Source of the DNA: Hymenopus coronatus
Lineage: Eukaryota; Arthropoda; Insecta; Mantodea; Hymenopodidae
DNA length: 64,000 nt
Direction of reading: 5' to 3'
NCBI GenBank assembly: GCA_030762935.1
Contig: CM060897.1
Location: 114,014,176-114,078,175 of the forward strand
This document shows positions 113 through 63,318 of the stretch, one piece after another; position 1 is the first letter of the stretch, and each line of letters begins with the position of its first letter. Made by a program: the position numbers and the translations under genes. The notes beneath the pieces are model-generated. The model made no database searches. It was not told the origin of the DNA and worked only from the letters and a program-made list of their open reading frames with translations.

Positions 113-850
113 TTTTTACTTTCTCTACATAGTGTATAGAGAAGGTATTGCATCCCGTAAACATTGGGTGTCGAGGTTTCATCGGAAATACACTTTTTAG
201 GGTCCCTATAAAAAAAGTCCATGAACACAACTCTAGAACAAAAGTCGGTAAAATGCCCAAATTGGTATTTATGTTTAGCATCTTCCGAGGATGCGACACG
301 AAGATTTTGATAAATGTCCGTCCACTCCAAACTACCCTTTACATGGAAAAAAATTCCAAAAGTTTAATATGTGGCAATTTGATCATTGTTGAGATAACTT
401 TGAGAAAATTAAAGATATTCTCTTATCAAAATATAGATCTTCAATTTTATGTGAGTAGTCCTCTTCACTCTGGTCTGCTTTTGTATAACTAAACCATCAG
501 ATTCACATTTTGGTTGCAGAGCTAGCCGTTTCCGGTATATTCCTTGTTATTGGTTTTTGAGTTTTAAATGCTTTTCTCAAACAAGAGATCGTTCGTCATT
601 CTTTTGAATTACTCCGGACCTTGCAAAGAAACGAATTTCAATAACAATGGATAGGACAACTTTTAAAATATTTGACTATCGCTTTAGTATAGTGTATTCC
701 CTTAGTTCCTTTTTGCTTATTACGAACCAAGTAATGAGACTTCCATCTCGATTAGCATGGAGTATAACGAACAATACTTTTTGCAAGAAGTTTGTTTGCA
801 GAACTAGAGAAAGTGTTGTGAATGGAACAGATTTTTTTCTTTTAATTTTT
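113..850 (+). repeat. HU repeat copy, 5'-shortened head
   Basis: The copy starts with a reduced hairpin (ACTTTCTCTACATAGTGTAT then AGAGAAGGTATTGCA) and ends with AGAGAAAGTGTTGTGAATGGAACAGATTTTTTT. The usual landmarks appear in order: the 'ACGAAGATTTTGA' block, the 'CCTTTACATGGAA' block and the 3' T-run. ORFs across it are short and shared by other copies in other frames, so it is not a gene. Confidence 0.8.
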
Positions 851-1482
851 TGAAGTTTACAAAAGCCACTTAACCCTTTACAGTGCGATTATTTTCAACT
901 GAAATACATTTTTGAAGACCAAGGTATACGATGGACACTTGTGGCCTTAAAAAGTTGGTCTTGCCCGTCTTTTATTGGTAGCTCAGTTGTGTGAATTTCT
1001 AAAAAACTTAACATCGCTGATCTGGATTTCAACGAGGTTAACTTAGGCTGCAATTCTTGCTGCTGTGGTACTAAATGTGAGAAAAGAGGGATGGACCCAA
1101 TTAAAATAAACACCGATTCTCACATCCAAGTGTTGACTGGACCTCTGTAGCTGTAGCATAATAAATTTTGTAGCTGTGTTGAAAAAAGGTATAATTGAAA
1201 GAGTTTTTATTTTATATTTTCCCTATTTTAAGCTTTGGTAATATTAAATATAAAGAAAAGACCGAAATATAGACAGATCAAGGTAGAGAATTATTTAACG
1301 TTAAGCTCTCGAAGTCGGAAAGTTTCACCGATATACCTCGGAAAAAAACAAAAAACAAAAAAAAACAAAAATACAAAACAAAAAATGACGTCATATTGTG
1401 ATATATAGGTAAACTATTGGGAATATTAGTGTAAGATAAATATGTAAATAGGATTTTTTTTATTGTTTCCATTTATATAGCC
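851..1482. other. AT-rich stretch with no recognised feature
   Basis: No ORF with gene character, no tRNA-like block and no HU landmark was recognised. There are A-rich runs near 1340-1385. It may be unique spacer or very old repeat. Confidence 0.5.
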
Positions 1483-1735
1483 CCTTTAACATCTAAGGTC
1501 ATATCCGGGGCTTTGAATTTGAATCAACTGGTTATCTGTAGGCTTTTACGTTGGGTTGAAATCGTTTTATTTTCCTCAAATACATACATTCACTAACACA
1601 CATTTACTTGCAGATTGTCTGGATAGGGAGTAATTCTGGTTAAAGAATGAATTCCCGGCTGGGGCGGAAATCAATCCCAGGACCTCTGGGTGAGAAGTCA
1701 GCTCGCTGATCACACGACCACGGAGGCAGACTAAA
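1483..1735 (-). mobile_element. tRNA-derived SINE (family A)
   Basis: Read on the minus strand, the element starts near 1733 with a tRNA-like head: GTCTGCCTCCGTGGTCGTGT carries a box-A-like block, followed by a degenerate box B (GGGATTGATTTCC). A GC-rich segment containing CAGCCGGGAATTC and an unrelated AT-rich body follow. A more decayed relative lies at 58740-58855. The two share the 'GTCTGGATAGGGAGTAATTCTGG'-type stretch in diverged form. It is a retroposed pseudo-tRNA, not a working tRNA gene. Confidence 0.6.
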
Positions 1736-1834
1736 TAGATATTGTTTTAATGACGGTTACAGTATAGCAATGGGTTTTGGTAAAGCAGTATTATGATTGA
1801 CTGGTTCAAAGTCACGCTGTAGAGCGAAAAACAA

Positions 1835-2050
1835 AATGAAAAAGCATTTTATTTATGGACGCCCTTTAACGGCTGTGGTTCTCAGTATGTCAATCTATAC
1901 TGGGCGTGAAAGATCGCTTAATTTTGGTCAGAGGTCTCTCTCTATCAGGACTGAGGTTCTTTTACGTGCCGTAAATCTACAACACGGAACCAACAGCTGT
2001 ATTTTCCTTCCGAAAGAAGCCATACACGACCTTGGGTACGTAAAGTGGGG
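1835..2050 (-). mobile_element. SINE fragment (family B body, head missing)
   Basis: This stretch aligns by eye with the body of the complete SINE at 3079-3367. Shared blocks are TGGGCGTGAAAGA, CGCTTAATTTTG, TCTATCAGG and GTAAATCTACAACACGG. The tRNA-like head present at 3300-3367 is missing here, so it is a truncated or older copy. The ORF at 1797-2075 is only a reading frame through this repeat. Confidence 0.7.
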
Positions 2051-2333
2051 TAGAAACAAGCTTGCAATCTTTTGAGAATAGAATCGCTTGGGGGGACAGT
2101 TATTAGTTAGCTACGAAGGGGTGATGATGTAGCTCCGCTCCAGCCTTGCCAAGCGTGGATACCAGCAGGGTATTAACGAGATCTGCCCAACAGATGATTT
2201 TGCAACTTAGGTATGAAATACTATTACTTTCTAATGAATACACTTTAAATGGTGTGAAAACAGCGTTTGCTTTAATGGGAAGGTTCCTAGTATTCTCCTT
2301 GCCATAATTAAGTGTTAATCTAATATTCCCTCC

Positions 2334-3041: not shown

Positions 3042-3078
3042 TTTACTTTCTCTACACGTACTATGTACATAGTGTGTA

Positions 3079-3367
3079 AAAATGGAAATGGCGTGATATT
3101 TATGGAAGCCTTTTAACTACTGTGGTTCTCAGCGTTCCATTCTAAATTGGGCGTGAAAGACCGCTTAATTTTGATCAGAGGCCTCTCTATCAGGCTTGAG
3201 GTTCTTTTTAAGTGTCGTAAATCTACAACACGGGACCCACGGCTTTACTTCCCTTCTGAAGAAAGCCATGGTAAGGATTTTTACATCCGAAAAAATCCAT
3301 CGCCTTCCGCCGGGTTTGAACCTGCATCCTTGGTCAGTATGATAACCGCTACACCACAGAGAGCGAC
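3079..3367 (-). mobile_element. Complete tRNA-derived SINE (family B) with 12-bp TSD
   Basis: On the minus strand the element begins with a tRNA-like head: GTGGTGTAGCGGTTATCATA resembles box A and GGTTCAAACCC is a good box B (about 3312-3360). A non-tRNA body follows, ending in an AT-rich tail at 3079-3110. ACATAGTGTGTA occurs at 3067-3078 and again at 3368-3379, an exact 12-bp target-site duplication made from the HU head palindrome. This is typical of LINE-mobilised SINEs. ORFs over it (3147-3380, 3165-3425) are not genes. Confidence 0.88.
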
Positions 3368-3476
3368 ACATAGTGTGTAGAGAAGGTATTGCAGTCCACC
3401 CAAAAATGCAATACCGAGATTTCACCGGAAATATGTTTTAGTGTCCCTGTATAAAAAAACACATTTTCAAAAAAAG

Positions 3477-3506
3477 GTGTGTGTGTGTGTGTATGTGTGT
3501 GTGTGT
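3477..3506. repeat. (GT)n inside an HU copy
   Basis: A short GT tract at the standard internal position of the unit, just before the 'GTGAACAC..AACTC' block. Confidence 0.85.
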
Positions 3507-4252
3507 CCGTGTGAGTGAACACTAACTCCGAAACGAAAAGTCGTTAAAATACAAACTTGGTATTTAAGTTGGTAATCTTTCAGGGATGAGACACGAAGAT
3601 TTTGAGAAAAATATTCTCATCCGAAACTATCCTTTACATGGCACTTTTTTCGAAAGTTTTGATTTCCTCTGAAGTGGCTAACAATTTTGATTAAAATCGT
3701 ACACATTTTGACAGGTTAACATCTTTAATATGTCATGAATTTTTGGGGAATAGCTTCTGAAGACTACTTTATTCTAGATAAATTTTACGGAATTTTGCAT
3801 AACCAATAAAACCGTAAGAGGGAACCGTTATGGAGCATGTAAACACACAAAATTTATGCTATATACATATATATATATATTTTTTTTTTTTTTTGTTGGT
3901 GGAGTTGATCATTTGAGATATTACTTGTTTTTGGTTTTAGCTTTAAAAAATATACTTTTCCATTACGGGAATTTTAAGTTCCTTGTATGGACAGCAGTTG
4001 ACAGCCACATAGCAACCAGCTTTTGAATATCACTTTAACCTATGGAGCTCCCTTATTTTCCCTTCTACTTACAAGGAAGCAAGTAATAAAACTATTTCTG
4101 CCATTTCCCCCCTTCTCGATTAGCATGAAGTAAATAGAAGCATAAGATTTTTAACAATAATTTGTTGCAGAGATGTAGAAGAAATCAAGTGAATGGAAAA
4201 CATACGATTTTTTAAATTTAGGTCCCTCCAACTAAATCGAAAAAATACCTAC

Positions 4253-4477
4253 CCTCTTATAAGCAGTGACGGTAAGTATGCCAGTGGAGCAGATATCCTG
4301 AACATAATCGTTCATTCTTACTCCTAGTGGTAATGGGTAACGTCGGATGAACTCGCCTGGGACGACTCCATTTTCTTCCTTCTTCTTGCCTTCTACAATT
4401 ATGTATGGAGCACCATTGATGATGTCCGACCTAACGATGATATCTTCACGGTTGTAATCTCTTATATTTAGCTGTAC
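4253..4477 (-). CDS. Gene C exon 3: alpha-crystallin (Hsp20) domain of a small heat-shock protein
   Basis: This exon encodes 75 residues, starting VQLNIRDYNREDI and ending GILTVTAYKR, the core of an alpha-crystallin domain. Members form oligomeric ATP-independent chaperones that hold unfolded proteins. Visible family features are the 'V.L.I.DY..EDI.V' beta-2/3 strands, VEGKKKEENG, the EFIRRYPLP segment, and the G-I-L-T-V beta-8/9 signature near residues 66-70. The Arg that aligns with the dimer-interface Arg120 of human alphaB-crystallin is kept, unlike in genes A and B. A CAG acceptor lies at 4478-4480 and a GTAGGT donor at 4247-4252 (minus strand). Length and phase match the exons at 37319-37543 and 56135-56359 exactly. 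A longer open frame upstream to 4561 is intron. Confidence 0.9.
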
Positions 4478-4790
4478 CTGGAACGTACAAGTTAAACTGA
4501 AATTTTCGAAGAATAATAGAAATAAGTACCACAAAAAAGCTGTTAAGCTAGAAAAAGCCATGTGAAAAACATATCAAACTCTTAAAAAAGATCATTCTTT
4601 TATGTACGTCGAGATATTTATCCTAAGCATTAGCAGAACTGGTGTTATTACTAGATTATTTGTAAGCAGTAGTGATGTAAAATGATACATTAGACTAAAG
4701 TGATCATTTACGATACAAATTCGCGTCATTTGTCTGGGCGCTCTTCAACCTAAGGCTTATTGTGCTGTCTGTATCGTTTAGAAACAACGC
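4478..4790. other. Gene C intron, nothing recognised
   Basis: Intronic AT-rich DNA between the alpha-crystallin exon and the LINE fragment. It holds HU-like scraps (CTAGATTATTTG..AAGCAGTAG near 4650-4700) too degraded to delimit. Confidence 0.5.
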
Positions 4791-5085: not shown

Positions 5086-5104
5086 AATAGTTCCCCCATG
5101 TACT

Positions 5105-5690
5105 AGGGCCGACTGACAAGTCCCGGGCCTCTCAATGAAAACAGCATTTAAAGTTTCTTTTTTGGTTTATTTCTCAGCATAATCTCCAGAAAGACTAATA
5201 CATTTGTTATATCGGTGTTCTAATTTAATTAAACCATCTCTGTAGTGCGATTTATCAAGGTCCTCAAAGTAGCTGTTTACCTTGTTGCTGTGAAATCTTC
5301 GTCATTCAAGAAAGTTTTAGAGGTTTGCGAACAGGTGCTAGTCATTGGGTGCTAGATCTGGCGTGGGATGGATATTCAAGCATTTCGAACTTTAATTTGC
5401 ACATTTTTCCCATTGCAATGACTGAACGATGGGCCGGATCATTGTCGTGATGAAACGAGATTTTTTTGTCCCAATGAGGTCTTTTTCTATTCACGTCATC
5501 ACTCAAACATTGCAGTGAGCAATAAAAGCAATTTCCTGTGCATCCAGAAAACACTCATTATAACCTTGTTAGCTGACAAAATTGACTAACTTTTGGGGGA
5601 GGGGGCGCAATCCACTGTTTTGACTGTATTTACTTTCTCGAGTGTAGTGATGTATCAGTTTCATCCATGGTAATAAGCAGTCTCAAAAAC
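5105..5690 (-). pseudogene. Mariner-type transposase remnant
   Basis: The minus strand encodes pieces of a mariner transposase in order: MDETD (near 5660), a VFWMHRK-like stretch where mariners have VFWD, HHDNDPAH (about 5439-5462), which is the second catalytic-Asp motif, then KLKFEMLEYPS. A frame-broken C-terminal part follows down to EARDLS near 5110-5140. Stop codons and frameshifts throughout show it is inactive. The 3' part near 5105-5135 (CCGGGACTTGTCAGTCGGCC on the minus strand) may be its terminal inverted repeat, but the partner end was not identified. Confidence 0.8.
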
Positions 5691-6335
5691 TTACTGGGAT
5701 TTTTACGGTAGAGCTCCACATTCACTCAATTTTTCCCACATAGCGAACGCTTTTAAAAGCGTTTAGTAAATTTAAGACACGTGACTCAACTATGATAACT
5801 ATGTCCGAGCAAAGTTAAGCGTTTTTTCCAATGGGGTGTTAAGAACAGCAGCGTTTAAAGGGCGTCCATAATTTGAATTTCTTTTCCAGAATGAAGAGGT
5901 ATTTATAGGCTCTTCTCAGAAAATTCAAGATATACATTTGTACGTGTTGAAAATATCTTAATACATGGTATTTTAATATAAATCGTTAGAGCCATTTTGA
6001 TAAAGTTATGTTTTTCTAAAAATGTTCATGTGAGAGGAAGTTGGGATAGGAATATTTTGTTTCAAATCCCCGTGTTGCATCCTAGTAAAATTCTGCATCT
6101 CTAATTGGTGAGAAATTGCCTTGTGATTGACATTCCTGCTGACACGTGGCTGTCTCGAAAGTAACATTGCAGATTCTAGATCAGTTTTAGATTTGACTAC
6201 CATTGTTCGATTGACCAACATGGCTGCCCATGCACAAGCAGACAGAAAGAACGGAAAATTGCACATTTCGCATTAGAAAGCAGAACCGATTTTCAGAAAG
6301 TCCATTTTTACCCCTTATTTTCATCCAGTTCATTT
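5691..6335. other. Gene C intron, mixed unassigned DNA
   Basis: Contains a short TTTAAAGGGCGTCCATAAT piece near 5856 that matches the 3' tail of SINE family B in inverted sense, and a weak HU scrap near 5890-6090. The rest is unassigned. The minus-strand frame 6006-6266 has no recognisable protein features. Confidence 0.4.
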
Positions 6336-6372: not shown

Positions 6373-7179
6373 ACGAAATCTCGAAACCTGTCGTTCACCT
6401 GTCACGTAACCACGTTGTCTCCGTAACCAATAGGAAAAGCTCAGGAAGGAGCCTTAGTCTAAAACTGAACTAGAATCTACAATGTCGCTTCTCAAAACGC
6501 TGTTGCCATATTTATTCGCTGTTGGGCCGCAGCGCCATATGTTCCACAGCTTCCTCTGAAATTCCTCTTTCCTTGCATTTTCTATCACACTTCTCCTATA
6601 TTGAACTACTTCCTTCCCCATTTCTCACTAGTCAGTTCATCTATTCCTTTCAACATTGGGTCCTTACTTTGCTAAATCTAAAAAGTTTATTATTTCGGCT
6701 AACGTAACCTCAACTCGTTTATCACGGCTGTAAGACATTTCCAAATTAGTTATTCCTGATAGTTCTAGGACGAGAACAAGTGCAATGTTCGTGACGTATA
6801 AAACGCAGTGACGATTATAAATGTAAATCATTACGGAATCACCATGTATAACAACGGAACTTTTCACAAAATGAAATCCAGCAATTAGATAACAATCAGA
6901 TGCACGAGAACGCGCGCGTAAATTTCCACTGAACCCGTATGTGTTACAACGCCGATGACATGATGTATCTGGTGGTTTATGTATTCTTACACTACGATCG
7001 GTCAGCTACCTGACAAGACCCTGCCAGCAGACGACATATCACACAGGTGTCAATCATAAGGAAATTTCTCACCGACCTTAAGCAACGCCTTTAGCTATGC
7101 TGTAAACACACATCTGGGTTCTATAAGAAATGTATTTTCAGTTGAACCTCTGTATCGAATATTTGAGTGGATTACAATG
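6373..7179. other. Gene C intron, unassigned DNA with more CpG
   Basis: Nothing recognised. It is richer in CpG than its surroundings (for example CGAGAACGCGCGCG near 6905) and free of HU landmarks. Frames at 6522-6707 and 6664-6867 show no domain or splice support. Confidence 0.45.
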
Positions 7180-7226
7180 CTTTCGCTATACACTACATAC
7201 ATAGTACGTGTAGAGAATTGAAAATG
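7180..7226 (-). repeat. Isolated HU hairpin end
   Basis: GCTATACACTACATACATAG then TACGTGTAGAGAA is the HU palindromic head in reverse orientation with almost no adjoining body. Either a solitary end survived or the body has diverged. Confidence 0.6.
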
Positions 7227-7984
7227 TGTCTTCTTCAAACTATATCATGTTAAGTCATAAACATCTGCATAAATGTTTCATGCTGATAATCCTTTAGATG
7301 CAAACTAACATGGGAAATATGTCACAACCATGAAGGGAAGGAGCTTAGGGGTATAGCCAATTAGGGTAGAAGCAACTCAAAACTTGGCGTAATCATAGGT
7401 TTATTTTATCGGTTTGACGCCACGTTAACTCCAAGCAGTGTCTAGTTTAAGTCTTAAGGGGAGCAACCCTAAACTATCGAGTCTTACTTTGAAGCAGGCG
7501 TTGCCGTGTACGAGGAGTCTTGGACTGCATTGTTCGGACTTGGCGTATCTGAGAGTCGAAAAGATCGACGGGCAGCCCTCGCTCCAGAATGCGACTGTCT
7601 ATCCCCAATCGGCACTATCGCGGTAGCTTATATCGGTTCCATCTAACTCAATCCTAACGACGTCTGTTTCCTGAATGTGCTGAGCCGACGCCTTACTTGT
7701 GTGATTGTGCGGAAACACGTGATTGTTCCATGTTGTCTGGTGCTACATTGTTCTAGAAATTTCCATGGAAATAATGTCATTCAAAGAGTCCCTTGGGGCG
7801 ATCCTATGGAAGTCCTTTCACGAATAATCTTAAAGCCTCTCAAGTCTGAAAATGTAAAATATGAAACCGTTAGTATTTAGAGATGTGACAGGGCAATAAT
7901 AGTATTGTACTGTAAAGTAAAAGTGATCTTCCTACTCACACATGCGACAATATGCTAGGCTAAAGCGATAGTCCACACCTATGT
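7227..7984. other. Gene C intron, unassigned DNA
   Basis: Contains a comparatively GC-rich stretch (about 7430-7720) with open frames of 62 and 67 codons, but no recognisable domain, splice signals or repeat partner in the window. Confidence 0.4.
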
Positions 7985-9063
7985 GATGATGCTTACTCTT
8001 TTCTGATTACGAGCAAGAAAACTATTAAAGATATGACACGAGTAATGCACAATATCTGTAAAATTTATAGCATTATCAAGGTTCAGATGTGAATACTCCA
8101 CATAAAATATATTAAATTTTGTGCTATTAGAAAAGCAAACATTTGTTTCGTTACGTGTCCCCGTGTCCCATCCTTGGAAGTTGCTAAACGTAAATACCAA
8201 GTTTGGTATTTAACGGTCTTTTTGTTTTAGAGTTATCGTGCTCATAGATACACGGACTACTTTTTCTGAAAACCTGTGCTTCATTCACATACTTTTCTCT
8301 ATATCTCTGTTAGAAATTATTACTAACAAGATTATTATTCTATCTACTTTATGCTAATCAAGATAAACATTAGCAGAAACGGTCTTGCTACCTAGTTCCT
8401 TATAAGTAGGAGGGATGTAAGGGAATATACCAGGTTAAACCGACAGTCAAATACTTTAAAAGCAGCTTGCTATGAGATTGTAAACTGCTTCTTTGCGTGG
8501 CCAGGAGTTGACAAGTTCACTATGAAAAAAGTGAAAGTATTTTAAAACGAAACCAATAACAAGGAATATCTCAAAATTATAAATTTCACGGAGAAAAAAA
8601 AAAACTAAACACCAATGACCTAAATTGTGTTTAATCGATACCTACACATCTCTCTTACGGTGTACGGTGCAAAATTCATTCAGAATAATTGGGCTTTCAG
8701 AAGCTATTCCCAGAAAATGCAAGATATGAATTTAATTTTTCCCGTAAATCTCTCTAGTATTACATATTTTAATCAAAATCATTAGAACCATTTTTGAGAA
8801 AATGGCAGTTTTCGAATTTTTTCCATGTAAAGTGTAGTTTGGAGTGGGGAGAATTTCCTCAAACTCTCCGTATCGTATCCTTGGAAGATCCTGACCTTAA
8901 ATAACAAGTTTTGTATTTTACCATTTTTTTGTTTTTGGTTTTCGTGTTCAGACACATGGACTTTTTCTAATTTTTTTTTTGGATGCAGGGGTCCCTAAAA
9001 TTTAGGGTGAAATCTCAGTATCAAATTTTTGGGTGGTATGTACATAGGACGTGTAGAGAAATT
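7985..9063 (-). repeat. Two reverse HU copies, one truncated and one nearly full
   Basis: A truncated reverse unit (7985-8278) ends in a damaged TG region, immediately followed by a longer reverse unit that starts TCATTCACATACTTTTCTC near 8275 and ends in the palindromic end ACGTGTAGAGAAATTAAAAA at 9045-9063. They lie in the intron downstream of the gene C ATG exon, matching HU copies at the same place in genes B and A. Confidence 0.75.
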
Positions 9064-9199
9064 AAAAATGAAAGCAGGATGAAATAACGCAATCGAATGT
9101 GCTTAATGGCGAGCAGTAAACTTAGAAAACACAAAACTGTAAATTAATATTTTGTGGAACCGTCTTCACGAAAACATGTGCGAATATAAAGATATTTAC

Positions 9200-9343: not shown

Positions 9344-9479
9344 TCTGAAACAAAAATTGAATTTATCAAATGTTTGAAGCCATCTAGATATTAGGAATAT
9401 CAAAGAGATATGTGTACACATGTTACGCTTATATCTAGCAAGTTTTAGGATATAACAAAACCCATTAGCAAAAATAATC

Positions 9480-9882
9480 TGCTGTGTTCCATTCACACGA
9501 TTTTCTCTAAATGCTGTAACAAATTGTTAATAAGCATATTCTTCTACCTACTTTATGATAATTGATTAGGCACAAATGGTCTTTGCAAGTAGAAGGAAAA
9601 TAAAAGAATACACTGTGTAAAATTTTCGAAATTTTCCCCATGTAACGGATAGTTTAGGGTGGCGGAATTTCTCAAAATCTTCGGGTAGCATCCCTGGAAA
9701 ATACTAAACTGAAATCGACTTTTCGTTTTCGAGTTATCGCACGCGCACGCACACGCCTATTTCTAAAGATTTTCTTTTGTATACAGGGCACACTAAAATA
9801 TATTATCGAATTTTTTTGGATACAATACAATACCTTCTCTATACACTATGTACATAGTACGTGTAGATAAAGTAAAAATAAT
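9480..9882 (-). repeat. Reverse HU copy with internal deletion
   Basis: Begins TGTGTTCCATTCACACGATT and ends ACTATGTACATAGTACGTGT then AGATAAAGTAAAAA. At about 400 bp it has lost most of the middle. It lies just upstream of the gene C ATG exon, as equivalent copies do at 41221 (gene B) and 61345 (gene A). Confidence 0.75.
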
Positions 9883-10130
9883 ATGATGTAGAGAAAGTCA
9901 TGTGAATTGAACACATCTTTTTAGCTAATTATTATTAAAAGGAGTAATTTTCTGTCTACTTCATGCAAACCGGGATAAACATTAGCAAAAATGACTATTA
10001 CTTGCTTCCCTTCATTTAGAAGGGAAACAAGGGACTGCCTTAAACTAAACAAATCTGGTAGCTATGCGATTGAAATCTCCGCTTTCTTAGCCAGGATTTG
10101 ACAAATTCTCATATGTGAATAGTACAAATA

Positions 10131-10460
10131 TTTTAGACGGTGCCGTGGGCGAGCGGCTAGACCGCCCGGGTTCAATCCTTAACGCCCGCATGAGAAATTT
10201 GTGGTGGACGAAGCGGCGTCTGTGTGGGTTTTCTCCGAGTCTTCCGGTTTTCCCCACCTCTCATTCCAACAACTACTCCATTACCACCTTTCTAATCATC
10301 AATTTTGCTTACATTTCATATCATTCAGTTCCTCATGCCTGGCTAAGCGCTGACCCCTCGCAACAGGTTCTCCATTCTGTAGAACCGTGCCTTTGGCTCC
10401 CGACAGGCTTCTGACCTCTAGGCATTGGCTTGCAAGTGCTAGGGTGTCAGTGCTACAAAT
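10131..10460 (+). mobile_element. tRNA-derived SINE (family C) inside an HU copy
   Basis: The head GGTGCCGTGGGCGAGCGGCT and box-B-like GGGTTCAATCC (about 10170-10181) mark a tRNA-derived promoter with the anticodon arm shortened. A body typical of arthropod SINEs follows (GTGTGGGTTTTCTCCGAGTC then TTCCGGTTTTCCCC) and a C-rich tail. ACAAATA occurs on both sides (about 10121 and 10456), a possible short target duplication. The 99-codon frame at 10115-10414 is SINE sequence, not a gene. Confidence 0.75.
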
Positions 10461-10899
10461 ACCGAAAGGTTAAGCCGATTACGAACAACAAGGAACATGT
10501 CAGAAACGATCAGCTACACACATTCCGCGTGACAAATTATGTGCTTCAACCAGATGTACATTTTTGTGTATTATGTTTTTGTCTATGCCTTCTGGTTTAC
10601 CAATTATTGTGAAATTCAACAGAATTCATCTAGAGAAAAAAAAAAGGTCTTCAGATACTATTTCCAGAAACCAAGCTATACATTTTTTATAAATATCTTT
10701 AAAATTACGATATTTCAATAAAAATTTGTTAGAACCATTTGAGGAAATCAAAATTTTCGAACATTTATACCATATAAAGTGTAGTTTCAGTTAAAGAAAG
10801 TACCCGTTCCGGATCCTTGGGAAATGCTTTAACTTAAATACCAAGTCTGCTATTTAAGAGACTCTTCGTTTTTGAGCTTTGACGCAAACACATACAACC

Positions 10900-26790: not shown

Positions 26791-26791
26791 T

Positions 26792-53253: not shown

Positions 53254-53259
53254 TTTATT
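53254..53259 (-). terminator. Gene A polyadenylation signal
   Basis: AATAAA on the minus strand, 134 bp past the gene A stop and embedded in sequence matching the gene B 3' region. Confidence 0.6.
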
Positions 53260-53392
53260 TAAAAATTTAGTACGATTATAATAAATATAAAATGTTTAGT
53301 TGTCTTTGAAACAAGTTTGTACAATTTTTTCCAAGATAAAAGATGTTTATAATCCATAAAATCGTACTTCAAGGTAAAACAACGTTTAACCA

Positions 53393-53485
53393 TTAGTAAT
53401 TCAAGATTGTTGTATTAGACACCTGGAGGTTATATGGCCTGCCATAAACTGGGTTCACTGCTTCCTTCATTGCTTCTGCAGAAAT
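53393..53485 (-). CDS. Gene A exon 4: C-terminal end of a small heat-shock protein
   Basis: Encodes ISAEAMKEAVNPVYGRPYNL then QVSNTTILNY and a TAA stop (53393-53395). The double acceptor TTTGCAG / ATTTCTGCAG is the same as in gene B, with only the first AG keeping the frame. The middle of the tail (NPVYGRPYN versus GPIYSRACK) has changed more than its ends. No clear I-x-I/V oligomer motif is present. Its position relative to the poly(A) signal is conserved. Confidence 0.82.
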   Translation of the reverse strand: MSAEAMKEAVNPVYGRPYNLQVSNTTILNY

Positions 53486-53689
53486 CTGCAAAATTAAACA
53501 TACGTGAATGTTAAAATGTGATGTGTGCTGTTGCATTTTCTGCATATTATGCAACAATCCATTCTTAAAATATTAAATTGCGCAATATATAAACGACCAG
53601 CGGACACGTATTCACAATATGCATTCTCCATCTGATAAGCAACTTATAATTTGTGGTTAGCCAATAGTTTTTGAAATACTTAGTTCTTG

Positions 53690-54335
53690 TAGGTAGCATG
53701 TAAATAAGGGGATACACTAGGCTAAATTGACAGTCAAATGCTATAAAATGAGGTTGCTGGGGTTGAAATCCAATTCTTTGCGTGGTCAGGTGTCGTAGTT
53801 TTCTCATGCGGGAACTTGTCAAGTATTTTAAAACTGAAATCAATAAAATGGAGAATCTTAAAAACGGTCAATTCTTGGAAAACATGCTTATAACACAGAT
53901 TGAGCGTTTTAACGAGCTCAACATTTTTTTTGTTAAGAAAGTCTGTGCGCATCTCTTACGGTTTACCATTTATGCAAAATTACTTAAATTCATTCAGAAT
54001 GTCTTCAGAGACTATTGCCAGAAAATTCAAGATATATACATGTAAATATTTAATATGGATATTAAAATAAAAATCGTTAGCCATTTGAGAAAATCAAACT
54101 TTTCGAAACTTTCTCCATGTAAAGCGTAGTCGGGGTTGGGGGTATTTTCTTGAACATTTTCGTGTTGTATCTTTGGAAGATACTGATCTTAAATACCAAG
54201 TTTGGTGCTTAACGAAGTTTTCGATTTTGAGCCATTTTGACCACACATAACCCCCCCTTCTCCCCCCAGGAATTTTTTTTGGGGGTGGGGGTGAGGGAGT
54301 CTCCAAACATATTTCCGATCTAATCTTTAGTATGC
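53690..54335 (-). repeat. Reverse HU copy in gene A intron 3
   Basis: Starts headless at its 3' side (AAATAAGGGGATACACTAGG), keeps central blocks and the TACCAAGTTTGGTGCTTAAC hairpin remnant, and ends near AACATATTTCCGATCTAATC. Poly-C and poly-T runs replace the TG tract. Confidence 0.75.
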
Positions 54336-54889
54336 AAGTTTTGGCGTTTTTTTTTTTTTTTTGGGTAGCGAAAGACTTTGGTTCACAGCAAATTTACCTG
54401 TAGAAGGGAGCAGCACGTGCAATTAAGAAACCGTTTTCGAGCAGCGAAAGCAAAACAGACAAGACTGAACCAACGGATCTTAGCAGACGAGATTTGGGAT
54501 TTTAATTTATACTTCAGTAAATATTTACGGATAAGTATGGAAACATTTTTATACGTTTATAATTTATGTAAAGTTGTAAAAGACCAATTTTTAACACAGA
54601 TTTCAGCCATAGAAATTTTGATTCGAGTTTACACAACCGATTTGGTAAAAAGGAACTTTGCAAACGTTAGAAATGTTTAATTAAAACAAGAGTTGTCAGT
54701 GAAGATTTTGTTCAATGGAAATTTTTGGATGTTCCTTTACATTTTATAATTATTAGTTGTTCTTTTATTTTGTACTGCAAATTTCATTTTACCTCCATTT
54801 TAAATTTAAAAACAACATGTATTTTATATCTTGAGTATTATGTATACTAAATTTGTTTTTAGCTAATAAATAATGGTAGTACACTTACT

Positions 54890-56092
54890 TTCTCTAGTAT
54901 GTACATATTTGTAAGGTACAGAATAGAGGAGGATATGCATTCCAGCAAAGTATTCGGTAGTGAAATATCACCGGTAATATGTTTCGAGACCCCCCCTCTC
55001 CGAGTTAAAAAAAAATCTCACATCTTTCGCCAATGTGTGCGTGTACAGAAAAGCTTAAACATTTGAAATTACGTTAAATACCAAACTTGGTATTACAATT
55101 TGACATTTCCCCATGGACGCCAGACGAACAATTTCAAGAAAATCCTCCTACCCAAAGTATAGTTTGGATGGGAAAATGTTCGAACATTTTGTTTTTCCTC
55201 AAAAAAAAGAAAACCAACTTTTTTGATTAAAACACCGTATATTAAAGACATTTACACTATAAAATGTAACTCTTGAATTTCCCGGGAATAGCTTTCCCAA
55301 GTCCTCTTCATTCTGAAAACTTTTGCTTAACTGGTAACCATTAAGGAGGGGGGGAGAGAAAAACATAGCTTTTTACTGCACAAAAGATCTGGATTTTGTG
55401 AAAACCTAATTTATATCCTTTATATGTTCGTGGACGAGCTGTTTCCGAGATATTCCTAGCTGTGTATTGATTTAGAACTTAAGTCATCTTGATTTGACCA
55501 TCAAAACAAAAACCAATACAACTTTCGAGTCCAGCAAATCATATTTATGGGAAAATTATAAATATTTGAAACAGTGAATTCTAATAGGACAAAATCCGAT
55601 TTGCAGCATTCACATGCCTTTCTCTACATCTCTGCTGCAAGTTATTGTTAAAAAGTGTATTCTTCCATTTACCTCATGCTAATCGAAAAAAAAAAAAAAA
55701 AAAAAATGGCAGAAATGGTCTTGTAACTTTCTTTTCGGAAGTAGAAGGGAGATTGGGGGAATATATAGGCTAAAATGGTTAATCCAGGAAAAAACATTAG
55801 GAGATATTCCTTATTATTAATTTTAGCTTTAGAATAGTTAAAATTTTCACAAATTGGAATTTGTCAACTGATAATGCAAAGAAGCTAAATTCATCCACAT
55901 GGCAACCAGCTCATAAAAGAGTTAAGACTATTGTTTTAGCCTAGTGTATTATTTCCCCTTCTGCTTACAGAAAAGCATTTCTGCTTATGTTTATCTCGAT
56001 TAGCACGAAGTAGAATGAAGCATAAGTTTTTAACAATAATTTGTTACAGAGATGTAGAGAAAGTTCTGGGAATAACACACATTAGATTTTTA
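54890..56092 (+). repeat. Composite HU copy next to the gene A alpha-crystallin exon
   Basis: Counterpart of 36067-37278: forward head half, reverse 3' piece (about 55609-55770), and forward 3' half ending GATGTAGAGAAAGTTCTGGG and TTAGATTTTTATC about 45 bp from the exon. Confidence 0.75.
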
Positions 56093-56134
56093 TCATCTAG
56101 TTTCACCTTAAAGCAAGGACAATATAATATATAC

Positions 56135-56359
56135 CTTCTTAACAGCAGAGAGGGTAAGGATACCAGAGGGGTGGAGTTTCTTAACAAAATCTTTCAGCTT
56201 TACTCCTTGTGGCATTGGTAGGCGATGGACCAACTCATTCGGGACGATTCCATTCTCCTCTTTCTTCTTTCCTTCTATAACTAGATATGCGACGTTTCTG
56301 ACAATGACCGACTTTATTTTTATCTCGTCAGCCTGGTATTCTCTCAAGTAAATCTTCAC
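56135..56359 (-). CDS. Gene A exon 3: alpha-crystallin (Hsp20) domain
   Basis: Encodes 75 residues, VKIYLREYQADEIKIKSVIV through GILTLSAVKK. The domain features are those of gene B: DEI-K strand, VEGKKKEENG, ELVHRLPMP and the G-I-L-T strand. Protein residue 100 is His where alphaB-crystallin has Arg120; Pro105 at the end of that strand is kept, unlike in gene B. Acceptor CAG is 56360-56362 and the donor GTATAT begins at 56134. Spliced in phase 0 on both sides. Confidence 0.92.
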
Positions 56360-56467
56360 CTGAAACCATCCACACATTTTAGAGGAATTAATTTACAGAA
56401 ATAAATAGAATTTTGTGTTGCATTCACATGATTATCTATTCTCTAACGAAGTGTTCTTACAAAGTTA

Positions 56468-56794
56468 CATACATTTTGTTAGTCATTTAAGTAGCTTTGA
56501 TATAAGATATTTTAATCAAAATCATCATATGATTTTTTTTTAGAAAATACAAACCTTCGAAACTGTTCATGTAAAGGGTGGCTCGAGGCGAGGGGGGGGG
56601 TTCCTTCACAATCATTTTGTTACATCCCTGAAAGATACGACTTAAAATACCAAGTCTTGATCTTTTTCTTCTAATCTTTTTTTCGATACAGGGAACTGTA
56701 ATACGTGTATTTCCTTCAATCTGGCCATACAATATTTTATGTGTAGTGCAACACCATCTCTACCTGTGTACCATGTACTGTGTAGAAAAAGTAA
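56468..56794 (-). repeat. Reverse HU 5' fragment in gene A intron 2
   Basis: From TTAGTCATTTAAGTAGCTTT through CATGTAAAGGGTGGCTCGAG to ACTGTGTAGAAAAAGTAAAG. Only the head-side third remains. Confidence 0.65.
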
Positions 56795-57079
56795 AGCTTG
56801 TCACTTTTAACGCTTTTCTAAGCGCATTGAAATTTTCAAACAAACTTTTTAAAACTAAAAGGATGTGTTCATAATGGAGAATAACCACACGACACAATAG
56901 AATAGTCAATTTTGGGCAATGGAAATATATTATGTTTAGGGTTTATTAGAAGGAGAGTCCTTACAGCTAAGGAGGAGAGTGGAAATGCGGAATTTACCAC
57001 CTTTTTACTGAAACACATTGAACGATTCACTTCCATGTGACGAAGTTTGCATACAACGTTCCGACCTTCCTGCTTTTTT

Positions 57080-58632
57080 TATTTTTTATACAAGTACGAT
57101 GTACATAGAGAAGTATTCCATTGCTCAAAAAATTAGATCCGGATATTTCCCGGAAATTAAGTTTTGTGCATAAAAAAAAAACATTTTTAGAAAAAGATAT
57201 GGGGTGGGCCAGAGAAAGAAAACGATAACTCAAAAACGAAAAGTTGGTTAAGTACCAATCATGGTATTTAAATGTATATTTTCTAGAAATGACACACGAA
57301 GATTTGGAGGTGGGGGGCAATACCCCTCTACCCTAAACTAGCCTTAACGCGGGAAAAAATTCCTACATTTTAATTTTCTCAAAAATGGCTGTAACGATTT
57401 CGATTAAAATATTGTATATTAAAGATATTTACATGGTAAATAAAATTTACATTTTGAATTTTCTGGGAATAGCCTCCAAAAACCTCTTTATTCTGAACGA
57501 TTTTGTGCAGCTGGTAAACCGTAAGAGATATGCAAAAACTTGCCACACAAAAAATGTAGATCTCGTCAAAACATACAATTTATAAACATACGTTTTTTCG
57601 TGGAGTTTACCATTTCCGAGATATTCCCGTTATTGATTTCATTTAAAAGAGTGAAACTTTTCTCAAACCAAAATTTGTGAACTCTTAGACCATGCATAGA
57701 TTTTAGTCACGTAGCCAACTAGTTTCTTTCTCTACACGTACTATGTATATAGTTTACAGAGATTTCACCGGATTATGTTTTCGGGTCCCCTGTATCCAAA
57801 TAAGTACTTTCAAAGGTCCTTGTGAGTGTGTGTGTCTGAACATGATAATTCAAAAACAAAAAGTGTGCAAAATACCAAACTTGGTATTTGTTTAGCATTT
57901 TCCAGAGATGCGTTACGAAGATTGAGAAAAATCCTCCCACCCCAAACTACCCTTTACATAGAGCCATTTTTTTAGAAAATAAAAATTTTTGAAAAAAGTT
58001 CCAACGATTTTGATTAAAATATCGTATATTAAAGATATTTACCCGACAGATAAAATGCATATTTTGAATTTTCTGGGAATAGCCTCTGAAGACTACTTTA
58101 TTCAGAGTGAATTCTACGGAATTTTGCATAATTGCTAAAGCGTAAGAAATGGACAAAAGCTTACTATACAAAGAAATGTAGAGCACATTAAAACACAATT
58201 TATGCTGCATACATTTTTTCTTGGGGCTTATAGTTTTTGAGATATTCCTTATTTTTGGTTTCAGCTTTCAAAAATTTAACTTTTCTCATACAGGAATTTG
58301 TCAGCTCCTGGCCATACAAACAAAGGAACTTCAGTCACATAGCAACCAGCTTTTGACTATCACTTTAACCTAAGGTATTCTACTTACAAGGAAGTAAGTA
58401 ACAAGACTGTTGCATAGATGTGAGAAAGCCATGTGAATGGAATACATCAGATTTTTTTAAAGGATGCGACTATTGCTTTGTCCTAACGCATTCCATTATT
58501 TACCTTCTACTTACAAGCCATCGAGATAAACATTAGTAAAATCATCATAAAGTAGATAGAATAACCTTTTTTTGCGAAAATTAGTTGCAGTTATGTAGAG
58601 AAAGTCACGTGAATGAAACACATCAGATTTTC
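57080..58632 (+). repeat. Three successive forward HU copies in gene A intron 2
   Basis: The first (57080-57722) is cut near its 3' end, the second (57726-58458) starts with head TCTTTCTCTACACGTACTAT, and a third 3' fragment (58459-58632) follows. No equivalent cluster stands at the matching place in gene B, so copy number changed after duplication. Confidence 0.8.
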
Positions 58633-58739
58633 CTCTATTCCAACCTGAATAAACGCAATTTTAACATCTAAGCAATATTGGCGGTGTTGCTTCTGGAGCA
58701 GTTGCTCATAGCACATTTTCATTTGTTTATTAGTTGTAT

Positions 58740-58855
58740 TTATTAACTTTAAATACATACAGACTTTGGAGAGATGTCGGGATAATCTTGGTTAGAGCAA
58801 AACTAAACCCAGCCGAAAATCGTAGCCGGGACTCCACGCGCAATAAATAGCATTC
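58740..58855 (-). mobile_element. Decayed SINE fragment (family A)
   Basis: Shares with 1483-1735 the order CATACAGACTTTGGA, GGGATAATCTTGGTTAGAGC, and GCCGAAAATCGTAGCCGGGA. The tRNA-like head is largely gone. Confidence 0.55.
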
Positions 58856-58974
58856 AACGTCGTTCATATTATAAAACGATTATGTTATATTTACTATAAT
58901 TGTTAAATTTCAAGATATAAATAACCACAAACATGAACTATTTTACATTTTTCTATGAAATAGAACAGGGAAAA

Positions 58975-59280
58975 AATCGCTGTATTCCACTCACATGATT
59001 TTTCCCTACATATTCTGAAACAAACTATTCTTACAAATGTTATGCTTCTATCTAATTCATGCTAATAAATAAAAAAACATTCAAAGAAATTGTTTTATAC
59101 AGTCCCCTGCGAGTTAGAGGGAATTACTAAATTAAGTCCTCTTTACAAGGGCATGAGTAGAACAAAATAAACAGGAATGTCAAATTCATGTTTGAGAACA
59201 TTTTAGGCATTTTACAACTGAAACCATTAATAAGGAATATCTTAGAAATGAGCAATATCACAGAAGTCTTAATACGCAAA
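58975..59280 (-). repeat. Reverse HU 3' fragment
   Basis: ATTCCACTCACATGATTTTT to TAATAAGGAATATCTTAGAA; it stops before the central block. Confidence 0.7.
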
Positions 59281-60207
59281 GTCTGCAGCTATTTTTAGAC
59301 AGTTAAAATAGTACATAGTAAATATTTGACCCTCATTGATAAGCAGGTTTTCTTTCGAAACTTGGACCTACTGAAATCTAAAAATGTCTTAAAAATATAT
59401 ATTAGTTAGATAACAAGATTCTGCATAGGATAACATGTTCAAAATTGAATATTGTAACAATTGAATTAATATCTATAACAAGTTAATACTAGAAAATGAC
59501 GAAGCAAATGACAACATGTGTGCGTTAGATAGAGATAGATATCCCATTTAACCGTCTTGGATTAGATAAGCTATGGTAATTTTTTTCTGAAACTATAGAC
59601 TTAAATGATTGCAACATATCAATCACTACAATTCAATTAATTCATTGATGTACGTAAATTCAAATAGTTGTCCATTAAGTTTACAGCAAATGGTATGCTC
59701 GAGTCCCCGGATGATAACATTTTCTAAGTATTTCTATAAACGTGGATATCTATGTGCAGAAATTTCCTCCAGCGAGAACCCTTAACGAAGGCAATACTGT
59801 ATTATGTTCGCGGAATATATAAATATATATAGGTGTGGAGCCAATGTGCATTTTAATGGAGAATAATTATGTAAAGCTCTAATTTATTTGGTTAATACTT
59901 TTCCAAGTTAAGGTTTTCGAAATAAAATAGACAATTTTAAAGTTAATTTACAAATATAGAAAGAATTACGTGCAAAGTTGAATAATTTTTCCAACTTATA
60001 TTTATAAAGATTGGATGAAGTTCTGTTCTAAGGTTTTGAATTAATTACACGAAGGCAGTATTTTAATTCCAATAAAAATTCCAATAAATACAGAAAAATG
60101 CATTACACAACACATGACGTTAATTATATTCATCTGTAGTAAGCATTCATGTATTTTAATTGACAAAATCACCCTATGCTTAATTTTTAAGGATTGGTTG
60201 TTTAAAA
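59281..60207. other. Gene A intron, AT-rich
   Basis: No feature of its own; the right part (59900-60200) is the diverged partner of 39440-39800. Confidence 0.5.
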
Positions 60208-60935
60208 ATCTAATTCATTCTAATGACCTTCTCTACATCTTTAAATCAATTTGTTTAAATGCTTATTTTTCTGTCTACTTCACGCTAATACAGATAAAAT
60301 AAAATTAGCAGACATGGTCTTGTTACTCGCTTCCTTTAAGTAGAAGGCAGGAAGGGGAATGAAGTAACACGCCAGGCTAAAGCGACAGCTATATGATACA
60401 AGATGTTCTATTTGTATGGCCAGACATTTACAAATTCACCCATGAGAAAAGTTAAATATATTAAAACTGAAAGCAATAAGAAGAAATCTCGGACACCGTT
60501 ACCCCTACACAAAGCATGGCAAATTACAAGTTTTAACGAAATCTACATATTTGGTATACAAGTTTGTTTATCTCTTACGGTTTAACAGTTATGCAAAATT
60601 CATTCAGAATAAAGAGGTTTTAGGAGACTATTCGCCGACAATTCAAGATATACATTTTATTTTTTCCATTTAAATGTATTTAGTATGCGGTATTTTCATC
60701 AAAATCGTTAGTCATTGTTTATTTAAATCAAAATTAGCAAGTTTTTCCATCAAAAGTTTATTTGAATGTAGCATTTAACCACTCACAATTACTCACTTTG
60801 GTATTTACTGGACTCGTTTTTGAACCCCCCCCCCACACACACACAAACACTTTTTCTAAAAAAGTATTTTTTTTTGGATTAAAGGATCGCAAAGCTATTC
60901 TAGTAAAATCTCGCTATCGAAATCTTTTTTAATTG
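60208..60935 (-). repeat. Reverse HU copy, partner of 39809-40646
   Basis: From TTCTAATGACCTTCTCTACA through AGTATGCGGTATTTTCATCA, a block shared with the gene B copy, to the damaged head near 60920. A poly-C then CA tract (60827-60845) fills the TG position. Confidence 0.75.
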
Positions 60936-61095
60936 CCCAGTTTTAACAATTATGCAAACAAATGCATGAAGCAACATGAAAACGTATCGAGACGAGTGCT
61001 GGGGAATATCCGCGAGGAATGTAGTTATTACAAAAAAACAGACTGATATATTTTAGGGGAATACATTTTCATGAAAGCAAGCACATGTTATTTAC

Positions 61096-61260
61096 CTTGA
61101 AAACCTCCTTTGGTTCTTCGGCAGGAACATCACTATAGTAATCTCTTTGTGGACTGGCAGCAAGGAGTGTTGAAAGAAGAGGAGGATGATTCCTAACGGT
61201 GCAGAAAGATGTCGTTGATGAAGGATGCCAGGGATCTCCAAGATATCGTGGATAAGACAT
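61096..61260 (-). CDS. Gene A exon 2: N-terminal region of a small heat-shock protein
   Basis: Encodes 55 residues, MSYPRYLGDPWHPSSTTSFC through AEEPKEVFK. The first 35 residues are nearly the same as gene B; the acidic stretch before the splice site is six residues shorter. The ATG follows the acceptor (GTTTCAG then A-ATG; exon edge 61261) and the donor is AAG then GTAAATAAC. Forms the N-terminal arm of a 160-residue chaperone subunit after splicing to 56359. Confidence 0.9.
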
Positions 61261-61344
61261 TCTGAAACATGTCACACAGCTTGAATAAAAAGACTTTACC
61301 AAAATATCAACCTAGTTACGCACGACATAAGAGATATCGCTAAC

Positions 61345-62190
61345 GTTACCCTCGCACGACTTTCTCTAGCTGCTCTACAAACAAACTTCTTACAAAAGAT
61401 TTTTCTGTCTACACCATGCTACTCGAGATAACCATTAGCAGAGTGTTTACATTACTTAGTTCCTTATAAGTAGAAGGCAACTAAAGGAATGTGGTATGCT
61501 AAAGTGATAGTCAAATGTTTTAAAAGCTGCCGTTGTCATTGCAAATCGCTTCTTTGCTCCGACAGGAGTAGAACCAATAGAAAATGGACACTTCCTGTCT
61601 GAGACAAGGACGATTACGATTGAAACCAATAATAAGAAATATATCGGAAAAGGGTACCTCCAGAAAAAAAACCCGTAAAGGTCAAATTGTATGCTTTGGC
61701 GAGATTCCCCCCCCCCCCCCCGAGGCAAGTTTTAGTTTATCTCTTACTGTTTAGCAATTAAGCAAGATTTGGCTAAATTCATTTAGAATAAAGAGCTCTT
61801 CAGAGGCTATTCCCAGAAAATTAAAGATATACATTTTATTAATAGATTTAATATTGAGGATTTAAATCAATATGGTTAGCCATTTTTCAGAAATTCAAAA
61901 TTTTCGAACAATTTTCCATTTAAACAGTAACTTAAGGTGGGAGGGATTTTCTTGAAAATCTTTCGTGTCGCATCCTTGGAAAATACCAAAATACCAAACC
62001 TATATATCTTACGTTTTTTGAGCTATGGTGTTCACAGACGCACAAGCCCTTTTTCTAAAAAGTTTTTTTTAGTGCTGGGGGGAACTCAAACCGTATTTCC
62101 GGAGAAATCTCCGATATAAATTTTTTTGGGTGGAATAAAATACCTTCTCTGTCCAATATGTACATTGTACATGCAGGCTAAAAGAATGTA
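61345..62190 (-). repeat. Reverse HU copy upstream of the gene A ATG exon
   Basis: Partner of 41221-41909. Starts TCGCACGACTTTCTCTAGCT and ends CCAATATGTACATTGTACAT then GCAGGCTAAAAGAATG. Here the TG tract is almost gone, whereas the gene B partner has about 66 bp. Confidence 0.8.
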
Positions 62191-62431
62191 AAAAGCAAGT
62201 GTTGCGACTAAAAATCTATACAAAGGTAGTGAGAATGTCCTTTAGAAATAAAACGAATTTTATTCTTAACTAATGAAAAGATATAGCTTTTTTTCATTTG
62301 GCGCATTGGAACTACCCAACAACTGAACTCCTAGTAGAACACGCGCTAGCTTATTAATAAAACTGACCTAATTTAAACCTCGTTTTCTCGTAAACAGTTT
62401 TCTACACTTCAGATGCCGCACATGATATTTT

Positions 62432-63318
62432 TACTTTCTCTCGACGTACTATGTACATAGTGTATAGAGAAGGTATTGTATTGCACCCAAAATTTGATAC
62501 CAAGATTCACCGCAAATATATGTTTTGAGACTTCCTGTAATTTTTCTTTTTCCAGAAAAAGGTCCCCGTTTGCCTTTAGGCAGCATGGCCTCATAAACGC
62601 AAAGTCCGTTAAATATCAAACTTTGTATTTCAGTTCGGCATCTTCCAAGTATGCAACACGAAGATTTTCAAGAAACTCCCCCTCCATACCCTTTAATAGG
62701 ACAAGTTTTCCAAAATTTTGATTTCCTCCAACATTTTGATTTCCTCAAGAAGGCTAACGATTTCTATTGAAATATTGTATATTAAAATATTTACATGTCA
62801 AATATATATCTTGGGATTTTCTGCGAATAGCCTCTTAAGAAGTCTATTCTGGATGAACTATATTAAACTTTTGCATAAATGCTAAACCGAAAGAGATAGA
62901 CAAAATGTTGCCACACAACAAATTTAGATCTCATCAAAACCCACAATGTATGTCATCTACGTTTTTGTCGTGAATGTAACAGTTTCAGAGATATTCCTTG
63001 CAATTGTTCCCCCCCCCCAACTATAAAGTACTTATAGTTTTTTCAGATAGGAAATGTCAGTTTTTCTTTTGTTCTACTCCTGGCCAGGCAAAGAAGCGAT
63101 TTGCAATGACAATCGCATAACAACAGTTATTCATACATTTCACCAGCACCTTAGCATAGCGCAGTCCTTTAGTTCCCTTCTACTTATAAGGAACTAAGTA
63201 GAAGGAAGATTCTGGCAATGTGCATCTCGATTAGCATGGTGTAGAAAGAAGAATAAATTTTTGCAACAAGCTTGTTTGTAGAGAAGGTCATGCAAGTACA
63301 ACACAAAGCATTCTTTTT
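62432..63318 (+). repeat. HU copy, partner of 43023-43909
   Basis: Intact head (ACTATGTACATAGTGTATAG) to GTTTGTAGAGAAGGTCATGC; the internal TG tract is lost. Shares 3' flank with its gene B partner. Confidence 0.82.

Follow-up and report, generated by a model that had tools for sequence, protein, structure and literature searches.

More than half of a 64,000-nucleotide stretch of the mantis Hymenopus coronatus (assembly GCA_030762935.1, contig CM060897.1, positions 114,014,176 to 114,078,175; hereafter the window) is made up of decayed copies of one repeat of about 860 bp, here called HU. HU carries T-runs at both ends and a 12-bp subterminal inverted repeat (subTIR) common to its head and tail, and was therefore placed with the Helentron-associated elements (HINEs). 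It is very probably a family of these non-autonomous Helentrons, of which DINE-1 is the type case: short, non-coding elements that would be moved by an autonomous Helentron elsewhere. HU appears to be a new family within a known class, 'new' meaning that it had no match in the viral contigs and literature searched; it may be named in repeat libraries. Viral contigs scanned with four HU patterns gave no match and neither did HU sequence words in the literature, while an unspecific wider query returned none among the matches listed. In a literature search pairing Helentron with arthropod groups, the word 'Helentron' did not occur among the matches listed.

Extent and coding content of HU

A profile of 865 columns, started from 12 seed copies and retrained on 36 long matches, was run with nhmmer. 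It returned 76 fragments in the window, 36 on the plus and 40 on the minus strand, which span positions 115 to 63311 and cover 35,167 of the 64,000 bases (54.9%). The same profile gave no matches at E<=1e-3 on the reversed window and none on one first-order Markov sequence of window length. An earlier description made from the letters alone (the sequence-only reading) had put the family at about half of the window, with copies in both orientations, and was right on both counts. A blastn search with the single copy 24267-25146 found 96 pieces covering 24,510 bases. HU content is 2,125 bases in the first 8 kb and 5,827 bases in the richest 8 kb (24-32 kb). Grouping the fragments by hand gave 62 elements, with 13 groups of split copies merged; separate insertions are fewer than this, because a segmental duplication (see below) doubled some copies.

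The sequence-only reading had also described HU as lacking a coding frame and a tRNA-like promoter. Stop-free stretches of the consensus reach at most 94 codons, and the HU-borne stop-free stretches 24315-24716 and 46182-46529 matched no Pfam family at E<=0.1. Two tRNA-like Rfam matches (26507-26578 and 49960-50031) both fall outside HU fragments. Inside HU, Rfam gave no tRNA, 7SL or 5S match and nothing above gathering score; the sole overlap at E<=1 was a sub-threshold snR43 at 22672-22859. Both descriptions are borne out.

Anatomy of the consensus

The consensus begins with TTT-ACTTTCTCTACAC and ends with ATGTAGAGAAAGT-C-ATGTG-AATGGAA-CACAT-CAGATTTTT, the tail being CAGA followed by a T-run. 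From 5' to 3', its blocks are a T-run, the 12-bp subTIR, a partial inverted partner, a TG tract, the inverted subTIR copy, a weak hairpin, and CAGA with its T-run. In the reference copy (24277-25147, plus strand) these features are:

24280-24292, plus: 5' subTIR, ACTTTCTCTATAC, preceded by a T-run
24308-24321, plus: inverted partner of the 5' subTIR, TGTATAGAGAAGGT (head hairpin, DNA fold z -4.3)
24418-24458, plus: TG-rich microsatellite tract
24490-24509, plus: AAATACCAAACTTGGTATTT, an internal palindrome; no other 20-column stretch of HU is better conserved
25109-25121, plus: 3' subTIR, ATATAGAGAAAGT in this copy and ATGTAGAGAAAGT in the consensus
25123-25139, plus: 3' hairpin, ATGTG/CACAT, no stronger than shuffled sequence

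The 5' subTIR, ACTTTCTCTACA, starts at column 4, and its reverse complement lies at columns 827-838 of 865, beginning 39 nt before the 3' end. When the first 60 bases were compared with the reverse complement of the last 60, an exact match of 12 bp emerged, equalled in one of 1000 shuffles and in one of 1000 random window pairs. With a single mismatch allowed, the match measures 14 bp, a length reached by 4 shuffles and 2 window pairs (1000 of each). The inverted partner, GTATAGAGAAGGTA in the consensus, is complementary to the 5' stretch at all but two of 14 positions, across a spacer of 15 nt. Folded as DNA, two 5' ends gave z = -4.3 and -3.6 for this head hairpin, and two 3' ends folded alongside did no better than shuffles. 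The TG tract lies near columns 138-150 and the internal palindrome near column 183. The blocks named in the sequence-only reading were recovered in the order it gave, several with one or a few base differences and AACCAGCTTTTGA with an inserted stretch. Its statement that HU has no poly(A) tail holds for the strand as read; it had overlooked the T-runs at both ends and the 12-bp subTIR.

Conservation was measured as column identity over the 76 fragments (mean 0.79) and ranked against stretches of equal length. The cores of the 5' and 3' subTIRs reached identities of 0.92 (99.4th percentile) and 0.90 (98.9th percentile). Identity was 0.91 in the tail CAGATTTTT and 0.87 across the 20 columns of the internal palindrome, both ranking at least at the 98.9th percentile. 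Because local alignment favors matches at extreme ends, identity may be somewhat overstated for the 5' core and the tail; the 3' core and the internal palindrome lie deeper.

Inverted repeats near both ends, the lack of coding capacity and the presence of both orientations would also suit a miniature inverted-repeat transposable element (MITE) derived from a DNA transposon that moves by cut-and-paste and has inverted ends. However, the outer edge of the 3' inverted repeat lies 27 nt inside the end of HU, and four insertions of HU into HU (below) show no duplication other than of T's. We regard a MITE-like origin as improbable; DINE-1 has likewise been called a MITE on similar grounds, according to passages of PMC2374699.

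Insertion sites and nested copies

Runs of at least five T's were found at 28 of 37 HU 3' ends, versus 10.4% of random positions, and runs of at least four at 24 of 31 5' ends, versus 15.9%; the element's own T's are counted in both comparisons. The target site was also read from four nested cases (N1 to N4), in which a complete or nearly complete HU lies inside an older HU of which both halves are kept:

37613-39341, minus: N1 host copy, split by 37947-38842
37947-38842, minus: N1 insert, full-length HU at the T8 run of the split copy
57078-58631, plus: N2 host copy, split by 57723-58456
57723-58456, plus: N2 insert, younger HU at a site reading GCTTTTAAAA in the consensus
47747-49315, plus: N3 host copy, split by 47870-48652
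47870-48652, plus: N3 insert, younger HU at a T-run (model columns 56-865, with a ACTTTCCC head directly before)
22843-25394, minus: N4 host, an older copy (5' part 25152-25394, 3' part 22843-23418), split by the dimer 23419-25147 (plus)

The host halves end and resume at model columns 534/531 (N1), 666/669 (N2), 125/144 (N3) and 242/249 (N4). Each of the four cuts falls within or next to a stretch of four or more T's on the strand of the inserted element: the consensus has T8 at 530 for N1, T4 at 669 for N2 and T5 at 123 for N3, and for N4 the run is A4 at 245-248 of its minus-strand host. T runs of four or longer account for 8.7% of the consensus, and A runs of that size for 9.4%. When the joined flanks were aligned with the consensus, no host duplication was found at N1 to N4 apart from T's.

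The full-length younger copy 26784-27605 (minus) adjoins, at an A-run, the 5' part (model columns 3-124) of the copy 26672-26790 (plus), whose second half was not found in the window. The copy 42081-42769 is present in only one of two duplicated units, and has its 3' edge at an A-run (T on the element strand) and an indistinct 5' edge. At 36068-37275, and in its duplicate at 54885-56091, an incomplete minus-strand fragment and about 125 bp of other sequence lie between the halves of a plus-strand copy; this composite was not counted as a nested case, since its inserted piece is incomplete and has indistinct edges. Structures with a 'double 3' end' (34731-35092, 36789-37275 and 55591-56091) were first taken for a new derivative with inverted ends, which was set aside; the second and third represent one event, as their flanks match on both sides and they occupy equivalent places in the duplicated units.

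T-runs at both ends, and sites some of which resemble TTTT/AA, might be expected of a retroposed short or long interspersed element (SINE or LINE) fragment read backwards, its A-tail appearing as the 5' T-run. Against this, the four nested cases contain no multi-base duplication, and the Rfam search inside HU gave only the sub-threshold snR43 match. Column coverage is moreover even over model columns 49-817 (37-48 fragments) and falls equally at both ends (21 and 21), which argues against the loss from one end seen in retroelements. Such an origin is very unlikely. The head palindrome and the tandem pairs described below had also raised the idea of a ribozyme-bearing retroelement (Penelope-like or retrozyme), and Rfam found no hammerhead at gathering score or at E<=1.

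Measured against the descriptions of HINEs and DINE-1, HU has the subTIRs, the inverted partner, the microsatellite and the T-rich site, and lacks coding capacity and, other than of T's, target duplication. Several observations count against the HINE assignment. The 3' hairpin (ATGTG-7-CACAT), although placed where a HINE would have it, 9 nt from the end, was equalled by 282 of 1000 shuffles, and its conservation (0.81, 71st percentile), like that of the inverted partner (0.82, 78th percentile), ranks below that of the subTIR cores. In the 27 of 62 elements with both ends, co-variation of the 5' and 3' subTIRs within a copy versus between copies was not significant (p 0.09 to 0.21). Around the cut, the nested alignment is ragged for N1, N3 and N4, with N2 alone aligning cleanly, and a short target duplication consisting of T's may be present. 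Finally, no autonomous Helentron was seen: the window has 55 stop-free stretches of 85 aa or longer, and the 30 of them scanned with Pfam hold neither a Rep nor a helicase domain.

Ages and head-to-tail pairs

Pairwise identity among 34 long HU copies averages 0.65 (range 0.55-0.85), so that most copies are old. Eight copies, starting at 16526, 23419, 24277, 26784, 42081, 46263, 47870 and 57723, form a younger group: the three best matches of each are at 0.80-0.85 and are nearly always other members. The inserts of N2, N3 and N4 come from this group, and that of N1 is older (best match 0.69).

Complete copies are joined head to tail at two places among the 76 fragments:

23419-24279, plus: first unit of the dimer (model columns 1-865)
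24277-25147, plus: second unit of the dimer, the reference copy (model columns 1-864)
45419-46265, plus: first, older unit of the second pair
46263-47139, plus: second, younger unit, joined at a common T-run

The units of the second pair are 0.755 identical to each other. The best match of the 45419 unit is 0.76, and the 46263 unit is 0.84-0.85 identical to the copies at 23419 and 24277, 22 kb away. As the first unit has diverged further from the other copies than the second, the identities point to end-to-end insertion rather than local duplication of this pair. The units of the dimer 23419-25147 are as close to each other (0.84) as to 46263 (0.84-0.85), a pattern that fits two insertions or one dimeric insertion.

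These joins of complete units are what a satellite with units scattered by recombination would offer, and the sequence-only reading had allowed for a dispersed satellite as well as a non-autonomous mobile element. The mobile element is upheld by fixed ends, both orientations and older copies split at T-runs. The satellite is not: only two joins occur among 76 fragments that lie in both orientations, end at T-runs and include copies split by copies, and the second unit of the 45419-47139 pair is closer to copies 22 kb away than to its neighbor. We give the satellite very little credence.

The remaining copies and the surrounding locus

The fragments found by the profile, with their strands, are:

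115-496 (+), 501-835 (+), 3042-3084 (+), 3368-4212 (+), 4578-4704 (-), 5884-6096 (-), 7093-7217 (-), 7946-8125 (-)
8158-8272 (-), 8275-9066 (-), 9475-9617 (-), 9619-9876 (-), 9885-9918 (+), 9913-10135 (-), 10481-11066 (-), 11162-11411 (+)
11418-11760 (+), 12265-13034 (+), 16526-17307 (-), 17313-17899 (+), 17912-18529 (+), 18734-19404 (-), 20189-20616 (-), 20618-20933 (-)
21059-21769 (-), 22340-22450 (+), 22453-22583 (+), 22590-22780 (+), 22843-23418 (-), 23419-24279 (+), 24277-25147 (+), 25152-25394 (-)
25371-26102 (+), 26672-26790 (+), 26784-27605 (-), 27638-27926 (-), 28423-29264 (+), 29358-29707 (-), 29829-30653 (+), 31086-31574 (-)
32947-33508 (-), 33510-33617 (-), 33803-34454 (-), 34731-34881 (-), 34875-35092 (+), 35239-35522 (-), 36068-36651 (+), 36789-36957 (-)
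36978-37275 (+), 37613-37941 (-), 37947-38842 (-), 38839-39341 (-), 39807-40646 (-), 41226-41574 (-), 41570-41910 (-), 42081-42769 (-)
42803-42945 (+), 43022-43905 (+), 45419-46265 (+), 46263-47139 (+), 47747-47863 (+), 47870-48652 (+), 48660-49315 (+), 50076-50351 (+)
53675-54345 (-), 54885-55463 (+), 55591-55777 (-), 55800-56091 (+), 56467-56795 (-), 57078-57721 (+), 57723-58456 (+), 58455-58631 (+)
58973-59261 (-), 60205-60926 (-), 61345-62181 (-), 62430-63311 (+)

Copies with further detail are:

115-835, plus: HU copy in two nhmmer fragments, 115-496 (model columns 1-457, E 1.5e-57) and 501-835 (523-864, E 2.2e-53)
3042-4212, plus: HU copy in fragments 3042-3084 and 3368-4212, with another repeat interrupting its 5' palindrome
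8275-9066, minus: near full-length HU copy (model columns 1-855); a remnant at 8158-8272, minus (123-236), adjoins its 3' end
12265-13034, plus: HU copy (model columns 6-865)
16526-17307, minus: HU copy of the younger group (model columns 3-865)
28423-29264, plus: full-length HU copy, from the profile
29829-30653, plus: HU copy (model columns 1-852)

The insertion that splits the head of the copy at 3042-4212 contains a different repeat, 3097-3269, which is 83% identical to 1850-2023.

The stretches 32014-44621 and 52764-64000 are collinear over 7,143 aligned columns at 74% identity, and the similarity continues past the window end. Judged by this alignment, they are the units (about 11-13 kb) of an old tandem segmental duplication. 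HU copies at equivalent places, or lacking a counterpart, include:

39807-40646, minus: full-length HU in unit 1, equivalent to 60205-60926 in unit 2
42081-42769, minus: younger HU copy (model columns 151-865) with no counterpart in the duplicated unit at 62362
43022-43905, plus: HU copy, counterpart of 62430-63311
61345-62181, minus: HU copy in unit 2 (model columns 6-852), equivalent to 41226-41910 in unit 1
62430-63311, plus: HU copy (model columns 1-861), counterpart of 43022-43905

The pairs 36068/54885 (identity 0.74) and 43022/62430 (0.76) are mutual best matches, and the best match of 60205 is 39807 (0.69), which is not reciprocated. As these three pairs occupy equivalent places in both units, they are older than the duplication.

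Each unit, and the stretch near 4.2 kb, holds one exon-like frame resembling HSP20/alpha-crystallin:

4235-4573, minus: HSP20-like frame, 21.1 bits versus a Pfam cut-off of 20.8
37295-37552, minus: HSP20-like frame, 15.3 bits, under the Pfam cut-off
56111-56392, minus: HSP20-like frame, 16.3 bits, under the Pfam cut-off

The first frame also matches solved small heat-shock proteins (best E 1.8e-5); two other protein searches with HSP20-like exons returned nothing. A 288-bp stretch with nearly all of the HSP20-like frame is 92% identical between the units, versus 74% overall, and this difference suggests that the frame is under selection. The three frames are perhaps a tandem family of small heat-shock genes.

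Other features lie outside these subjects. Two repeats that are 84% identical, 26472-26612 and 49925-50066, each contain one of the tRNA-like Rfam matches and are probably a tRNA-derived SINE. A minisatellite at 2327-2740 has units of 37-48 bp with GAGCTCACC. The stretch 5100-5880 looks like a decayed mariner transposon; four stop-free pieces of it matched no Pfam family. Matches to Pfam DUF3593, DUF3172, TNFR_16_TM and FANCI_HD1 in other stretches of the window fell below curated cut-offs and were taken as chance.

A proposed mechanism

If HU is a HINE, it would be moved by an autonomous Helentron located elsewhere in the genome, through that element's Rep/helicase/endonuclease. This enzyme would recognize the two subterminal inverted repeats and the neighboring hairpins and nick the element strand. 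Rolling-circle replication would then copy that strand, beginning at the 5' T-run and finishing at the 3' CAGA-T-run. The single-stranded product would enter between two T's of a T-rich strand, a step that could explain why no target duplication results. Every copy may supply new T-runs on which later copies could land, and the tandem duplication of the locus may have doubled some older copies. The density of HU would thus be due in part to insertion of HU into HU and to the old duplication that carries the HSP20-like exons.

A wider proposal is tentative and, in our judgment, rather doubtful: HU may be a self-nesting HINE that lands preferentially in its own T-runs and T-ended tail. Together with insertion of the dimer 23419-25147 as one unit, possibly by rolling-circle read-through, this would have made a gene-containing locus 55% one element, with AAATACCAAACTTGGTATTT as a further cis signal. 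Were the dimer indeed inserted as one piece, it would preserve a fossil trace of read-through during rolling-circle copying of a Helentron-type element.

With defined ends, a target rule and relative ages, the HU family can now be masked and dated. The window would represent a HINE load of 55% over 64 kb, accumulated in several rounds of insertion, some into the family's own older copies.

Comparison with known systems

The passages of PMC4067079, PMC7492417 and PMC2374699 used here describe HINE/DINE-1 subTIRs as identical and at least 11 bp long, the 5' one 2-4 nt and the 3' one about 38-60 bp from the end. In the DINE-1 type, an inverted repeat lies 3-22 bp from the 5' subTIR. A short palindrome is placed 8-35 bp from the 3' end and a microsatellite in the 5' part; the elements occupy T-rich sites, with T's flanking both sides, and have neither target duplication nor coding capacity.

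HU resembles DINE-1/INE-1 of Drosophila, as described in those passages (PMC2374699, PMC4067079), in subTIRs 12-13 bp long, of which the 5' one is terminal or nearly so and the 3' one lies well inside the element, in a partial inverted repeat beside the 5' subTIR, and in a microsatellite within the first conserved block. The lack of a significant open frame, the T-T site and the high copy number are also shared. Unlike DINE-1, HU has no central tandem-repeat array (within HU fragments, Tandem Repeats Finder reported nothing beyond dinucleotide runs and rows of two copies), and its microsatellite is TG-rich where that of DINE-1 is GTCY; for the subTIRs, the comparison covers layout. The well-kept internal palindrome of HU has no mention in the portions of the DINE-1 and HINE descriptions compared.

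The HINEs of the mite Metaseiulus occidentalis and the oyster Crassostrea gigas, in the portions of PMC4067079 and PMC7492417 compared, share with HU the order of 5' subTIR, 3' subTIR and palindrome, and oligo-T sites without target duplication; those of C. gigas also have the inverted partner and the microsatellite. HU differs from both in having no satellite-like central array. In M. occidentalis, unlike in HU, the subTIRs are themselves palindromic and there is no separate inverted repeat.

Canonical Helitrons, as outlined in PMC4067079, have 5' TC and 3' CTRR ends and insert between A and T. HU has neither end, its termini being TTTACTTTC and CAGATTTTT, and it inserts at T-runs; its assignment to the canonical Helitrons was set aside. 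Tandem copies, as found in HU, are reported for Helitrons, and the two probably use the same rolling-circle chemistry.

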